A DNA stretch of 64,000 nucleotides from Firmicutes bacterium AF25-13AC (GTDB lineage Bacteria; Bacillota; Clostridia; Lachnospirales; Lachnospiraceae). The DNA is taken from the NCBI GenBank assembly GCA_003478935.1, contig QUFP01000018.1, positions 16,805 to 80,804 of the forward strand, given 5' to 3'. A model generated the notes under the pieces. It saw nothing but the letters and a program-made list of their open reading frames with translations, was not told the DNA's origin and searched no databases. Made by a program: the position numbers and the translations under genes. This document shows, in pieces, positions 21,963-46,385 of the stretch. Every line of letters begins with the position of its first letter. The stretch's first letter is position 1.

Positions 21963-21968
21963 AAACGA

Positions 21969-22245
21969 TGACTGAGAAAATGTGTAAGTAGTCTGTACCA
22001 TTCGGTTTTCCAGAGAGGCCGCATAACCTGCTGAGAGTGCTGCCATCCGCCTACAGATGAATTTCAGCATTGGAGTCTTCCACGAAAATTTTGTTTCTGA
22101 CAAAAGCTAAGTGGATGCAGCTGCTGCATTATGGCAGATCAAGTGCGGATTGTAATAATTTTTATAATCCGAACATGGGTGGTACCGCGGATTTATTCGT
22201 CCCATAAAGGTTTTTTTAAAGCCTCTATGGGACTTTTTTATTTGG
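21969..22245 (+). promoter_or_regulatory. T-box leader (phenylalanine) upstream of pheS
   Basis: The leader contains the T-box core GGGTGGTACCGCGG (22177-22190), which base-pairs with the acceptor end of uncharged tRNA in the antiterminator. A stem I region with GAGAG-type bulges precedes it. The proposed specifier is TTC (22063-22065, in GAATTTCAGC), matching tRNA-Phe and the pheS gene downstream. A terminator ends the leader. Low charged tRNA-Phe should allow read-through into pheST. Confidence 0.9.
22199..22240 (+). terminator. T-box terminator of pheST leader
   Basis: GTCCCATA-AAGG pairs with CCTCTATGGGAC, followed by TTTTTTA. It is the alternative to the antiterminator containing the T-box core. 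Confidence 0.85.
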
Positions 22246-22250
22246 TGATT

Positions 22251-22300
22251 TTTCAGAGCCTCGCAGAGGCATTTTGCGAAGGGGGGTTCTGAATAGTTAC
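22251..22300. repeat. Short copy of a MITE-like repeat
   Basis: TTTCAGAGCC...TTTTGCGAA...GGTTCTGAATAGTTAC. The right 30 bases match the right end of the element at 43475-43617, and TTCAGAGCC matches its left terminal repeat. The copy is internally deleted. It sits between the T-box terminator and pheS, so it lies inside the read-through transcript. Confidence 0.65.
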
Positions 22301-41945: not shown

Positions 41946-42782
41946 ATGAGAAATAAAAAAAATATAATCAAGGCTTCATCAGCACAGCTTCAAGAATTAG
42001 AATGGTATGTTGGAAATAAAGAAGTGCATCTTCTTCGTTATTATGAGCCAGAGCCAGGCATTTTTATTGCAGAAAGCAAAAATGTTATTGATATTGCTCT
42101 TCGCAAAGGCTACGAGCCGCTAAGTGTTGTCTGTACTGAAAAAATGGAAAACGATGAGATTTTAGATCGTGTGGGAGAGGCACCTATTTACATAGTAGAT
42201 CCAGAGGATGCCAAAAGAGAGTTTGGCTATGTATTGACAGGTGGAATTTCATGCGCGATGCGAAGAAAAGAAAATTTTGATTATAAAAAAGTGCTTGAAA
42301 ATGCAAAGCGTATTGTTGTGCTTGAGGATGTAGAAAATCCAACAAACATCGGTGCAATCTTTAGAAGTGCCGCAGCATTTGGCATAGACGCTGTATTATT
42401 GTCACCAGCCTGTGTAGATCCGTTTTATCGCCGTGCAATGCGTGTAAGTGTAGGAAATGCACTTCTTGTTCCATGGGCTTATATTGGAAGCAGTGAGGCA
42501 AAATGGAAGGAAGAGGGCATTGGATGGCTGAAGGAGGAAGGCTTTCAGACAGTTGCAATGGCACTTCGTTCAGATAATATTCGAATTGATGATCCAGTTT
42601 TAAAACAAAAAGATCGACTCGCAATCATCATGGGAAACGAAGGACAGGGACTTGCAGAGTCCACAATCAATGCAGCTGATTATGTAGCTAAAATTCCAAT
42701 GATGAACGGAGTCGATTCTCTTAATGTAGCAGTCGCAGCCGGACTAGCAATGTGGGAAATCACCCAACACCGAAATCAGTGA
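41946..42782 (+). CDS. SpoU-family RNA methyltransferase (TrmH-like)
   Basis: Encodes 278 residues. I prefer the ATG at 41946 because AGCAGAGG is too close to the ATG at 41940. A substrate-binding N-terminal domain precedes the SPOUT knot with three motifs: NPTNIGAIFRSAAAFGIDAVLL, AIIMGNEGQGLAE and DSLNVAVAAGLAMWE. It methylates 2'-O ribose in rRNA or tRNA; the exact site cannot be told. The last 23 bases overlap the convergent queL gene. Confidence 0.93.
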   Translation: MRNKKNIIKASSAQLQELEWYVGNKEVHLLRYYEPEPGIFIAESKNVIDIALRKGYEPLSVVCTEKMENDEILDRVGEAPIYIVDPEDAKREFGYVLTGGISCAMRRKENFDYKKVLENAKRIVVLEDVENPTNIGAIFRSAAAFGIDAVLLSPACVDPFYRRAMRVSVGNALLVPWAYIGSSEAKWKEEGIGWLKEEGFQTVAMALRSDNIRIDDPVLKQKDRLAIIMGNEGQGLAESTINAADYVAKIPMMNGVDSLNVAVAAGLAMWEITQHRNQ

Positions 42783-43458
42783 TATCGTATAATACTTCAA
42801 CAGAAGGATCGTCAAGCAGCCAGTTATATTCCTTCATAAACCAGCGAACAAGCTCTTCATCACGTTTGATTGGTGTAGTATTATTGTTGTATACATTTAC
42901 TGTTCCAAGCTTAAAATAGCGCTTTAGGCAGTCAATGTCGTGCGCGATCATTTCCTTTGTCTGCCCCTTTATGCCGACCATAAGACATGGAGAGTCAAAA
43001 TATTTGGCTACCTCTTCAGGTGACTGAAAGTCGGCATGCTTATTAAGAACATGCTCACGAAAATCGCGGTCAAATGTCTCTACGCCAATCTTAAAAATGA
43101 TTGGCACTGGCATGCGGCTTCGCATTGCAGCGAGGTGCTTTCTATACATCCAGTGCGATTCAAAAAAGAGCTTATGGATGTTTTTTGTTTTTATTACATT
43201 TTCAATATCATCAAGTGTCTGCTTTGGAAGTTCAAAGCAGCTTCCTGAATTGATGACCTCTAAAACACCAAATTCGCCGGTGACTTGATCTAAAATGCTT
43301 TTATTTAATGAAATCATAGCTGCTTCATCATGTCCGTTGTCTTCGATATAATCACAAAATGTGCATTTTCCCCAAGCACATGGAAAAGCACGCAGCAGAC
43401 AAATTTCACGGTTATTTTTATCAGTAATTTTACTGTAGCGTTCAACAGGGATTCCCAT
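42760..43458 (-). CDS. queL: Radical SAM queuine lyase
   Basis: Encodes 232 residues. The cluster motif is C27-X4-C32-X2-C35 (FPCAWGKCTFCDY), one residue longer than the classical CX3CX2C. It is small for a radical SAM enzyme. It is third in a queK-queT-queL operon controlled by a preQ1 riboswitch. In Clostridioides difficile a radical SAM enzyme in this context converts queuine to preQ1, and I assign this gene on context plus radical SAM features. Ribosome site AAGGAG precedes the ATG. It converges on the SpoU gene. Confidence 0.82.
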   Translation of the reverse strand: MGIPVERYSKITDKNNREICLLRAFPCAWGKCTFCDYIEDNGHDEAAMISLNKSILDQVTGEFGVLEVINSGSCFELPKQTLDDIENVIKTKNIHKLFFESHWMYRKHLAAMRSRMPVPIIFKIGVETFDRDFREHVLNKHADFQSPEEVAKYFDSPCLMVGIKGQTKEMIAHDIDCLKRYFKLGTVNVYNNNTTPIKRDEELVRWFMKEYNWLLDDPSVEVLYDITDFGVG

Positions 43459-43474
43459 AAATTTCTCCTTATAT

Positions 43475-43617
43475 GTAACTATTCAGAGCCATGCAAAATT
43501 GCTTTCTGTGAATGCTTGCATTCAGACAGAATAGCAATTTTATATGGCGAGGTAACCACATGAGCAAAATAGAAGCATCGAAGATGCGATTTTGCGAATG
43601 GGGTTCTGAATAGTTAC
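43475..43617. mobile_element. MITE-like element with 16-base terminal inverted repeats
   Basis: GTAACTATTCAGAGCC (43475-43490) and GGTTCTGAATAGTTAC (43602-43617) are inverted at 15 of 16 positions and bound a 143-base element between queT and queL. Inside are two nested hairpins, one from AAAATTGCT/AGCAATTTT and one from GCAAAAT-GCATC/GATGC-ATTTTGC. There is no coding frame. The right end recurs at 22272-22300. Confidence 0.65.
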
Positions 43618-43629
43618 CCGTATATTACA

Positions 43630-44265
43630 TTAATTCGCGGCAAGGCGCTGCTTAATAGAAACAGGAAGCACGCGAACCATTGCCATGACAAGCGCAAGAC
43701 TTACTGCGCGGTCACAAAAATCAGTTAAAAACTGAACAAGAATGATGCTTGCTGTCAGTCCAAGCGGTGTCTTTGCAGCCAGAAACTGAACAAGAATTGC
43801 AGAGCCAGATGAGGTCACTCCGCCAAAAAGAACTGTGCAGATAAAAGCGCTGACAACTGTTCCTGGAAGAGAGATCATAAAGGCACGTCCTATCATGATT
43901 GCGGCATCCTTAACGGTACTTATATGGCCGAGTGACAAAATGCGCTGAAGCTTAGCACCGCCGCGAAGACCTGAAAAACCTGTATGAGCAAGACCGCTCA
44001 TAAAACCAACGATCATGCCGACAGGTGCAAAATACAGTGAGTAAATATCACCAGTAAAAGCCATGATCAGACCACCAAGCAGACCAGGGATTAAGCCGCA
44101 CCATGGTCCAAGCATGGCACCGATCATGATGGTTCCGATGCTGTCTAAATAAATTGGAAGACGAAGAGCAAGCGCAATCTGTCCGCCTATTACATTCATA
44201 ACAATTGCCAGTGCAATCAAACAAATCTGATAAGTTCCAAGTTTTCTTCTATTATTATTTTCCAT
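43630..44265 (-). CDS. queT: ECF transporter substrate-binding S component for queuosine precursor
   Basis: Encodes 211 residues with about six membrane helices and the S-component style helices (TYQICLIALAIVMNVIGGQI, SIGTIMIGAMLGPWCGLIPGLLGG). Energy would come from shared EcfA/EcfT elsewhere. It lies between queK and queL under the preQ1 riboswitch, so it most likely imports queuine or another queuosine precursor, as reported for gut Clostridia. ATG after AAGAGG. Confidence 0.86.
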   Translation of the reverse strand: MENNNRRKLGTYQICLIALAIVMNVIGGQIALALRLPIYLDSIGTIMIGAMLGPWCGLIPGLLGGLIMAFTGDIYSLYFAPVGMIVGFMSGLAHTGFSGLRGGAKLQRILSLGHISTVKDAAIMIGRAFMISLPGTVVSAFICTVLFGGVTSSGSAILVQFLAAKTPLGLTASIILVQFLTDFCDRAVSLALVMAMVRVLPVSIKQRLAAN

Positions 44266-44338
44266 TTCAAATACCTCTTTTTTATATAAGTTTTTGTATT
44301 ACAGTTTTGATTACATTAATTTGATAAAATGATACAAG

Positions 44339-45340
44339 TTACGAATTAATACGTACCTGCTTTGGACTTCGCACCATATCGGATAGAAGATCAAGCTCAT
44401 CAGGAGTCTTATTAAGCAGGCGCGAGAAAAAGAAGGTAAAGAAACGGACAGGATCAGTCTGTGTCAACACCACGCTATTAGATTCCTTTTTATAGAAATT
44501 CATAGAGTCAACAACTGTTTGACCGATGCTTATGCCTCCTGTTTCAACAGCTGTGTAAGCATCAAAACCACTGCAAATTGAATGATCAGCAAAATAGGCA
44601 ACCGCAAGAGGATCATTGATGACGCATCCAATCATATGCTCCCATTCCCAATGAAAATCAAGGTAGAATTTAGTGATAGCCTCAACAAATGAGCCAGTTT
44701 TGCTGTCGAGACGCTTTAAATAAGAGATAAGATCTGGTGTAAGAACGATCTGTCTTGTCACGTCGAGGCCAACCATATGGATAAGACGCTTTTGTCTGGC
44801 AGCCGTCTCATAGACAAGCGCAGCAGCATCAGGATCTGCCCAGTAGTTATACTCAGCGACAGGAGAACAATTGCCGTGACTCTTAAAAGCACCGCCCATA
44901 GATACCAGTTCATCAATTGCAGCAAATGCTGCAGGATTTTTCTGGATGAGACGTGCAAGATTTGTCATCGGACCAAGTGCGATGACGCTGCAGTGCGTGT
45001 TAAGAATCGTTTCCTCAAGAAATGAGACGGCATCAGTGTGGAAAGAAAAGTTTTCCACTGGCTCAAGAAAGCTTTCGCCTAAGCCGTCAGCGCCGTGTGT
45101 GTCAAGCGCGTTTACATAGTCGCGCTTTAGTGGTGTGCGTTCACCAGTAAAAATTGGAATGTCAAGGCGATTCATTTGACGAAGCACCTTTGCAGCATTG
45201 CCTGCCCCCATTTCAGTCGGGGAATTTCCACAGACAATTGTGATTCCAAGCACCTCAATCTGATCGCAGGAGAGGGCAAGCATGATCGCAAGGCTGTCGT
45301 CGATGCCTGGATCACAGTCGATAATTACTTTTTTTCGCAT
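44339..45340 (-). CDS. queK: Queuosine nucleosidase, inosine-uridine hydrolase family
   Basis: Encodes 333 residues. The IUNH metal motif is IIDCDPGIDDS (Asp8, Asp10, Asp14, Asp15), followed by ITIVCGNSPTEMGAGNA. The start at 45340 has AGAAAGGAAC upstream; a longer frame from 45367 lies in the riboswitch terminator. Other IUNH enzymes split inosine or uridine, but placement directly after a preQ1 riboswitch and before queT/queL points to hydrolysis of queuosine to queuine. Confidence 0.86.
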   Translation of the reverse strand: MRKKVIIDCDPGIDDSLAIMLALSCDQIEVLGITIVCGNSPTEMGAGNAAKVLRQMNRLDIPIFTGERTPLKRDYVNALDTHGADGLGESFLEPVENFSFHTDAVSFLEETILNTHCSVIALGPMTNLARLIQKNPAAFAAIDELVSMGGAFKSHGNCSPVAEYNYWADPDAAALVYETAARQKRLIHMVGLDVTRQIVLTPDLISYLKRLDSKTGSFVEAITKFYLDFHWEWEHMIGCVINDPLAVAYFADHSICSGFDAYTAVETGGISIGQTVVDSMNFYKKESNSVVLTQTDPVRFFTFFFSRLLNKTPDELDLLSDMVRSPKQVRINS

Positions 45341-45374
45341 AATAAGCTGTTCCTTTCTTTTGCGCAAAAGTCAG

Positions 45375-45437
45375 CAAAAAAAGCGCTGCCTTCGCACGAA
45401 TTTGAACACCTCAAAAACTATAGCGAAAACAGCGCTC
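45375..45437 (-). terminator. Riboswitch-controlled terminator upstream of queK
   Basis: On the minus strand AGCGCTGTTTTCGC pairs with GCGAAGGCAGCGCT, followed by TTTTTTT. It lies between the preQ1 aptamer and queK and forms the expression platform. Confidence 0.75.
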
Positions 45438-45459
45438 TTAAAAAAGAACGCTTCATCAG

Positions 45460-45496
45460 CCTAGTTTTTTATACTGGGAGGGTTTCGAACCAGTAG
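45460..45496 (-). promoter_or_regulatory. preQ1-I riboswitch aptamer
   Basis: On the minus strand: ACTGG (45494-45490), the loop TTCGAAACCCTC, CCAGT (45477-45473), and then AAAAAACTAG (45470-45461). This is the compact H-type pseudoknot of class I preQ1 riboswitches (GGTTC, CCC, A-rich tail pairing). Ligand binding should favour the terminator downstream and reduce queKTL transcription. Confidence 0.9.
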
Positions 45497-45514
45497 GCAA
45501 ATAGCCTGTGCCCT

Positions 45515-45543
45515 ATTATACTGACAAAGTTCGGATTTGTCCA
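45515..45543 (-). promoter_or_regulatory. Sigma-A promoter of the queK-queT-queL operon
   Basis: On the minus strand TGGACA (45543-45538) and TATAAT (45520-45515) with a 17-base spacer, about 20 bases before the aptamer. It overlaps the last codons of the AraC gene. Confidence 0.65.
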
Positions 45544-46385
45544 GTTTTTTTGCAGCGATATTCACCGGGAGTCATTTTTGTATAGCGGCGAAAGACTTTA
45601 GCGAAATAATTGCCATTTGCAAAACCGTTTTTGACAGCAATGACTTCTATAGTGTCATTGCTTCCAAGAAGATCATTCATGGCAGACTGAATACGCATTC
45701 TATTTAAATATTGAACAGGAGCAATGCCCCATTCGCTGTGAAAAGAGCGGGACAGATGCTCAGAAGAAATATGGAGACGTTTTGCCACCTCATCAATACC
45801 GCCAATGGTTGCAAATTCCTTTTCCATTAAAAGAGCTGCCTGACTGGCAGTGCTTTCAGTGTGAAAAGCAGCTGGATGAAGAACATGACGAAGCAGTCCG
45901 CAGAGAAAGCCGTATAAAAATTCACCGCCCTCATATGGCTGCAAATGACCGCCGCTAATCATGCGTGTATGAAGAGCAAGCGCCTTTTGAATGCAGCTTG
46001 TCTGCGCGTCAATTGAAATAATACCGCCGCAGTGTTGCGTAAGCTTTTCAAAAAAAGGAAAAACAGCGCTTCCATCGAAATGAAGATAGAGAAAATCCCA
46101 TGGTTTATCAGCTTTTTCAGGAAGATAATAGCAGCTTTTTTCGGGAATCACAGCAAAAAAGGCTGTGCCAGGAGTAAGAAAAATAGTTTTGCCATTAGAT
46201 TTATAAGCGCCGCACCCAGACAGTGTATATTGAAAAAGATAACCGTGATAATTGGAGCGGCAGCTGTTATCAAAAAAGTAGTCTTCCTTATAGCGGCTTT
46301 CAATTCCACCGTCAAGAAGAACCATTGGTTCATCTGGCAAGCTTTCAAGATTTAATACACCAAATACGCCTTTTGTATAGTACAT
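45516..46385 (-). CDS. AraC-family transcriptional regulator next to GH27
   Basis: Encodes 289 residues from the ATG at 46385. An N-terminal cupin-like sugar-binding domain (YLFQYTLSGCGAYKSNGKTIFLTPG, DFLYLHFDG) and C-terminal AraC helix-turn-helix domain (RLHISSEHLSRSFHSEWG, NGFANGNYFAKVFRRYTKMTPGEY). It is divergent from a GH27 gene, so it probably activates it in response to a galactoside. Confidence 0.92.
   Translation of the reverse strand: MYYTKGVFGVLNLESLPDEPMVLLDGGIESRYKEDYFFDNSCRSNYHGYLFQYTLSGCGAYKSNGKTIFLTPGTAFFAVIPEKSCYYLPEKADKPWDFLYLHFDGSAVFPFFEKLTQHCGGIISIDAQTSCIQKALALHTRMISGGHLQPYEGGEFLYGFLCGLLRHVLHPAAFHTESTASQAALLMEKEFATIGGIDEVAKRLHISSEHLSRSFHSEWGIAPVQYLNRMRIQSAMNDLLGSNDTIEVIAVKNGFANGNYFAKVFRRYTKMTPGEYRCKKTGQIRTLSV

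Follow-up and report, generated by a model that had tools for sequence, protein, structure and literature searches.

The window, by which we mean the whole 64,000-nt stretch of DNA analysed, carries on its minus strand three open reading frames, queK, queT and queL, behind a promoter-like site and a leader with a preQ1-I riboswitch aptamer. In order of transcription the features run promoter, aptamer, antiterminator/terminator, queK, S component gene and queL, which fits the operon span of 42760-45543 given in the original prediction. A Clostridiales-1 element, which that prediction does not mention, lies in the gap between queT and queL. The features are:

45515..45543, minus strand: promoter of the sigma-A type, TGGACA-17 nt-TATAAT, 11/12 consensus positions
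45455..45499, minus strand: preQ1-I riboswitch aptamer (RF00522, 43.1 bits)
45413..45469, minus strand: predicted antiterminator, AAAAACTA pairing with TAGTTTTT around an inner hairpin (fold -21.2 kcal/mol)
45376..45436, minus strand: predicted intrinsic terminator, 14-pair stem and six T (stem-loop fold -27.2 kcal/mol)
44339..45340, minus strand: queK, predicted queuosine (Q) nucleoside hydrolase, 333 aa (PF01156 and similarity to operon QueKs)
43630..44265, minus strand: queT/qrtT, predicted ECF transporter S component, 211 aa (NF045596 match under cut-off, predicted fold, operon position)
43475..43617, unstranded: Clostridiales-1 element, 143 nt, in the queT-queL gap (RF01699 55.2 bits, inverted repeats, fold)
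42760..43458, minus strand: queL, predicted radical SAM queuine lyase, 232 aa (PDB 6p78 match)

We took the ATG at 45340 as the start of queK; a 342-aa version of the frame begins at an upstream TTG. The end of queL shares 23 nt with a convergent SpoU-family methylase gene, and the upstream neighbour of the operon is an AraC-type regulator gene that ends at 45516. A sigma-A promoter had been proposed ahead of queK, and the site at 45543-45515 is the best of the 6 promoter-like sites (at least 9/12 positions) in 42600-45700. Because the number of such sites is at chance level (6 against a mean of 6.2 in shuffles), the promoter call is based on score and position. The closest QueL relatives among the matches listed come from Eubacteriales and Lachnospiraceae-type assemblies, with a best identity of 81%.

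The preQ1-I leader

The aptamer proposed ahead of queK passed the Rfam covariance model for RF00522, scoring 43.1 bits where 39 is the gathering score, at a window-wide E of 2e-5. It begins 15 nt past the promoter-like site and covers the full model (1-45) with 0 model pairs broken. Between aptamer and queK, where a terminator had been expected, fold prediction gave a 14-pair stem (arms 45436-45423 with 45395-45382) followed by six T. Inside the A-rich tail of the aptamer, AAAAACTA (45469-45462) is predicted to pair with TAGTTTTT (45420-45413), and the terminator and antiterminator folds are predicted to compete for this tail. Free folding of the growing leader, without ligand and without the pseudoknot, alternated: the antiterminator formed from 96 to 120 nt, gave way to the terminator at 128-144 nt, returned at 152 nt, yielded to the terminator again at 160 nt and was the fold of the full 168-nt leader.

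By analogy with a system described in a review, preQ1 should turn the operon off. When preQ1 is plentiful, the aptamer would fold into its pseudoknot and withdraw the A-rich tail from the antiterminator; having lost the tail, the antiterminator would give way to the terminator, and transcription of all three genes would stop. When preQ1 is short, the tail would pair with TAGTTTTT and the operon would be read.

Leaders of related operons varied in what follows the aptamer. With a script of our own, run without a shuffled control, we found a hairpin and T run 3' of the aptamer in 10 of 17 leaders (the window and 16 relatives), a weak hairpin (-8.8 kcal/mol) in the leader of locus L016, and no terminator in those of L008, L012, L013 and L015. 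At L007 and L010 the hairpin has AGGAGGT in its 3' arm, just ahead of queK, and therefore looks like translational control. Judging from these leaders, some species may use the aptamer ahead of this operon to control translation and others to control termination.

The encoded proteins and related loci

QueL aligned with the queuine lyase of PDB 6p78 over residues 5-232 (228 residues gapless; E 5.3e-80, 271 bits) and differs from that solved enzyme in sequence divergence only. Three cysteines, C27, C32 and C35, which we take to be the ligands of the radical SAM cluster, are common to both proteins and are invariant across the window QueL and 13 relatives, chosen for alignment from the 33 with ORFs drawn. 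The full-length similarity and shared cluster cysteines bear out the assignment of QueL to the radical SAM queuine lyases, with lyase activity predicted.

The QueK protein matched PF01156, the IunH-family hydrolases, at 277.9 bits. It shares 52-74% identity with the operon QueKs of 15 related loci, against 31-35% with four nucleosidase paralogues, which come from three of the related genomes. We built a tree from the window protein, these 15 operon QueKs and the four paralogues (L041, L043, L044 and L047). Not included were the operon QueKs of L001 and L004, whose frames are broken or short; L045 and L048, which are the two pieces of the queK of L001; and L046 and L049, which match the family weakly. 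Groups of four and nine operon QueKs that take in the window protein had support of 100/100 and 99/99, respectively. The branch that separates the QueKs as a whole from the paralogues was supported at just 50/79, and the paralogue branches are long, two of them over 7. Grouping with the operon QueKs and not with the four paralogues, and placed by its operon context, the protein is consistent with the earlier view that it is linked to queuosine and is not a generic purine nucleosidase.

Matches of QueK to the NCBIfam models RihC, RihA, UriH and ribosylpyrimidine nucleosidase all fell below their cut-offs. Among the names shown for its homologues (120 matches listed of 6018, up to 99% identical and most of them unnamed), none was QueK, and the few source names shown among the matches listed were nucleoside hydrolase or purine nucleosidase. 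In two related operons the queK frame is disrupted, being in two pieces in L001 (8174-9278) and cut short in L004 (1060-1128); each is either an assembly error or a decayed gene.

The product of the middle gene scored 68.2 bits against NCBIfam NF045596 (CD3073), under the cut-off of 180, and had no Pfam match at E 0.001, PF06177 QueT included. Its AlphaFold model has a pLDDT of 86.4. In a Foldseek search with this model, the 14 best-ranked PDB matches were all ECF transporter entries (for thiamin, biotin, folate, riboflavin and pantothenate), at E values of 0.015-0.29, none at 0.001 or below, and query TM-scores of 0.40-0.61. The model thus has the predicted fold of an S component, and the original call of an ECF S component as the middle gene stands on this ranking, with the curated family cut-offs not reached. 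The name queT/qrtT is given for the operon position, not from the family models PF06177 and NF045596.

At least 37 QueL loci were found on genome contigs. The order queK-queT-queL was found in 17 of the 37 listed (including L001, with its queK in two pieces), and queT-queL without queK in 2 (L028 and L030); the other 18 had neither neighbour at the threshold used, L037 among them having no match at all. In Rfam scans of 34 of the 37 listed loci at the gathering threshold (L023, L024 and L025 were left out), preQ1-I was found in 16 of 17 full operons and in none of the 17 other loci. The full operon without it, L018, is on a contig that ends 127 nt above queK, and L017, counted among the other loci, starts within queL, which leaves no leader to be found.

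We listed the neighbours of ten loci without queK. At five of these, a gene for a PF02592 transporter, a family named QPTR in the available part of PMC10723273, lies directly upstream of queL (queL at L006 7827-8549, L031 9316-9996, L033 9279-9959, L035 9255-10004 and L036 9243-9962). These loci resemble the window in that QueL adjoins a transporter of the queuosine-precursor type, but differ from it in that no queK, S component or preQ1-I match was found at any of the five. At L029 a PF02592 gene lies two genes off from queL on the opposite strand, and at L026 a PF06177 QueT gene follows queL. From this pattern of neighbouring genes, QueL seems to change its transporter partner between lineages.

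Pathway completion and competing readings

The original prediction required TGT and QueA/QueG to be supplied from outside the window. A tblastn search of the window with TGT, QueA and QueH of one relative found none of them (best E 1.5), as expected if those genes lie elsewhere. In the 31 genomes with related QueLs, matches over cut-off were found for tgt in 30, queA in 29 and queH in 29, whereas queG passed in 1 (G029, where it has two in-frame TAG codons and where QueH had no match); in G015, QueG fell just short at 198.5 against 200 bits. Single absences mean little here, because many of the 31 genomes are, by their titles, MAGs of unstated completeness. The partner pair should read QueA/QueH, not QueA/QueG, and the related hosts appear to be salvagers with QueH as the last step. 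We infer from these relatives that the window's host would have tgt, queA and queH of its own.

Synthesis of preQ0/preQ1 was represented in the search of the relatives by queC alone. No related genome had a queC over the cut-off (0 of 31); 29 had a match below it, the best at 36.2 bits. Among the 14 control genomes, by comparison, matches over cut-off were found for tgt in 10, queA in 9, QueH in 2, QueG in 7 and queC in 9.

The original work on queK-qrtT-queL of C. difficile is reportedly that of Yuan et al. 2019. As described in the available part of PMC11477304, C. difficile has a preQ1-I riboswitch ahead of a three-gene operon of queK, qrtT and queL (CD1682, 84 in a table there), in which QueK converts queuosine to queuine and QueL converts queuine to preQ1. 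The claim that the three families together form a reported Clostridia queuine system agrees with that account. Compared with this published description, the window likewise has preQ1-I before a nucleoside hydrolase, an ECF S component and a radical SAM queuine lyase, and differs in its 143-nt Clostridiales-1 element between the S component gene and queL.

With these sequence parts and family matches, a conserved operon and no queC over cut-off in the related genomes, we read the window operon as one for indirect queuine salvage of the C. difficile type, with a probability of about 0.93. Import of the queuosine nucleoside and/or queuine would fall to the S component together with an ECF core whose genes lie elsewhere; QueK would strip ribose from queuosine, and QueL, by radical SAM chemistry, would cut queuine to preQ1. 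TGT, QueA and QueH, encoded elsewhere in the genome, would then put preQ1 into tRNA and rebuild queuosine. In this scheme we infer which substrates are used, what the enzymes do, that an ECF core is present and which way the switch works.

Two other readings of the gene set were weighed. QueK might be a general purine/pyrimidine nucleoside hydrolase that stands in the operon by chance, leaving the S component and QueL alone to serve queuine salvage. Its Pfam family is a general one, its NCBIfam matches are all under the cut-offs, the names shown for homologues among the matches listed point the same way, and 19-20 of the 37 listed loci have QueL without QueK at the threshold used, or with no match at all. 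We nevertheless regard this as very unlikely, since the three-gene order is kept in the 17 listed loci, 16 of them with the same riboswitch, the protein is far closer in identity to the operon QueKs than to the paralogues, and PMC11477304, in the part available, describes the homologue from the corresponding C. difficile operon as a queuosine hydrolase. Alternatively, the S component could import preQ1 only, with queuosine or queuine, the substrates of the queK and queL products, entering by another route. One of two C. difficile QrtT proteins transports preQ1 only, according to the available text of PMC11130926, and the nearest NCBIfam model of the window protein is the CD3073 family; its 68 bits are, however, well under that family's cut-off, and, in the account of PMC11477304 at hand, preQ1, queuosine and queuine are all taken up by the QrtT encoded with queK and queL in C. 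difficile. This second alternative is unlikely in our judgement, and indirect salvage through import of queuosine or queuine is the reading we keep.

The Clostridiales-1 element and the meaning of the operon

The queT-queL gap is 171 nt and would be 28 nt without the 143-nt element. RF01699 matched at 43480-43612 on the plus strand with 55.2 bits against a gathering score of 48, and the ends of the element (43475-43617) are perfect 13-nt terminal inverted repeats, GTAACTATTCAGA. Either strand of it folds into a branched hairpin, at -59.9 and -57.7 kcal/mol, the latter for the operon strand. Among 19 related loci measured, 17 have the queT stop at most 16 nt from the start of the queL match or beyond it; the wider spacings are 76 nt in L001 and 158 nt in L010. 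At the Rfam gathering threshold, RF01699 was found in none of the operons of 17 relatives, L001 and L010 included.

Elsewhere in the window, the 13-nt end occurs once more, on its own, at 22288-22300, some 80 nt past a T-box leader. That leader (21965-22207) scored 91.9 bits, just under the gathering score of 93 (E 1.6e-20), and was missed at the default threshold because its score is below Rfam gathering.

When 11 of the 31 related genomes were searched at E 0.001, the match counts for RF01699 were 52 in one genome, 13 in two, 7, 3 and 2 in one genome each, a single match in four and zero in one; in 7 of the 11 there were matches over the gathering score. The 14 control genomes had no match. 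Ends differ between copies, and GTAACTATTCAGA of the window element is not the common end elsewhere. At L029 (2854-2942), which belongs to a Clostridia MAG with a QueL of 56% identity, an 89-nt stretch has the same 13-nt terminal repeats as the window element. Inspection by eye found no clear target-site duplication flanking the window element, and no empty site was seen in a close strain. In the part of PMC2864571 available, Clostridiales-1 occurs in one table line, and the words transposon, transposable, mobile and 'repetitive element' are absent from the main text.

A dispersed repeat fits RF01699 better than an RNA gene does, although a simple repeat story has against it the four genomes with a single copy, the differing ends, and the lack of any empty site seen in a close strain or clear target duplication. 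The dispersed copies, 52 in one related genome, suggest that the Rfam Clostridiales-1 'sRNA' is a MITE-like or REP-like repeat, with the terminal inverted repeat forming its closing stem. A copy would have landed between queT and queL, where its hairpin may lower or uncouple queL expression; we put this account as a whole, tentatively, at slightly short of an even chance. The element could instead have a function within the operon, for example in RNA processing or stability, by which QueL is set apart from QueT, and it does separate the two genes and does form a strong branched hairpin on the operon strand. That explanation seems quite improbable to us, given the close queT-queL spacing in all measured loci except L001 and L010, the absence of RF01699 from the operons of all 17 relatives at the gathering threshold and the dispersed nature of the family. 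On the repeat account, a copy within an operon is a small reason to re-examine what RF01699 is.

The riboswitch and genes are already in print for C. difficile, as far as the published descriptions available go, and the window is an ordinary new example of them. Across the loci scanned, preQ1-I goes with the queK-S component-queL form of the system and was not found with the queL-QPTR form. The operon ties a generically annotated nucleoside hydrolase and a radical SAM gene to queuosine, and the usual last gene in the related hosts is queH, not queG.
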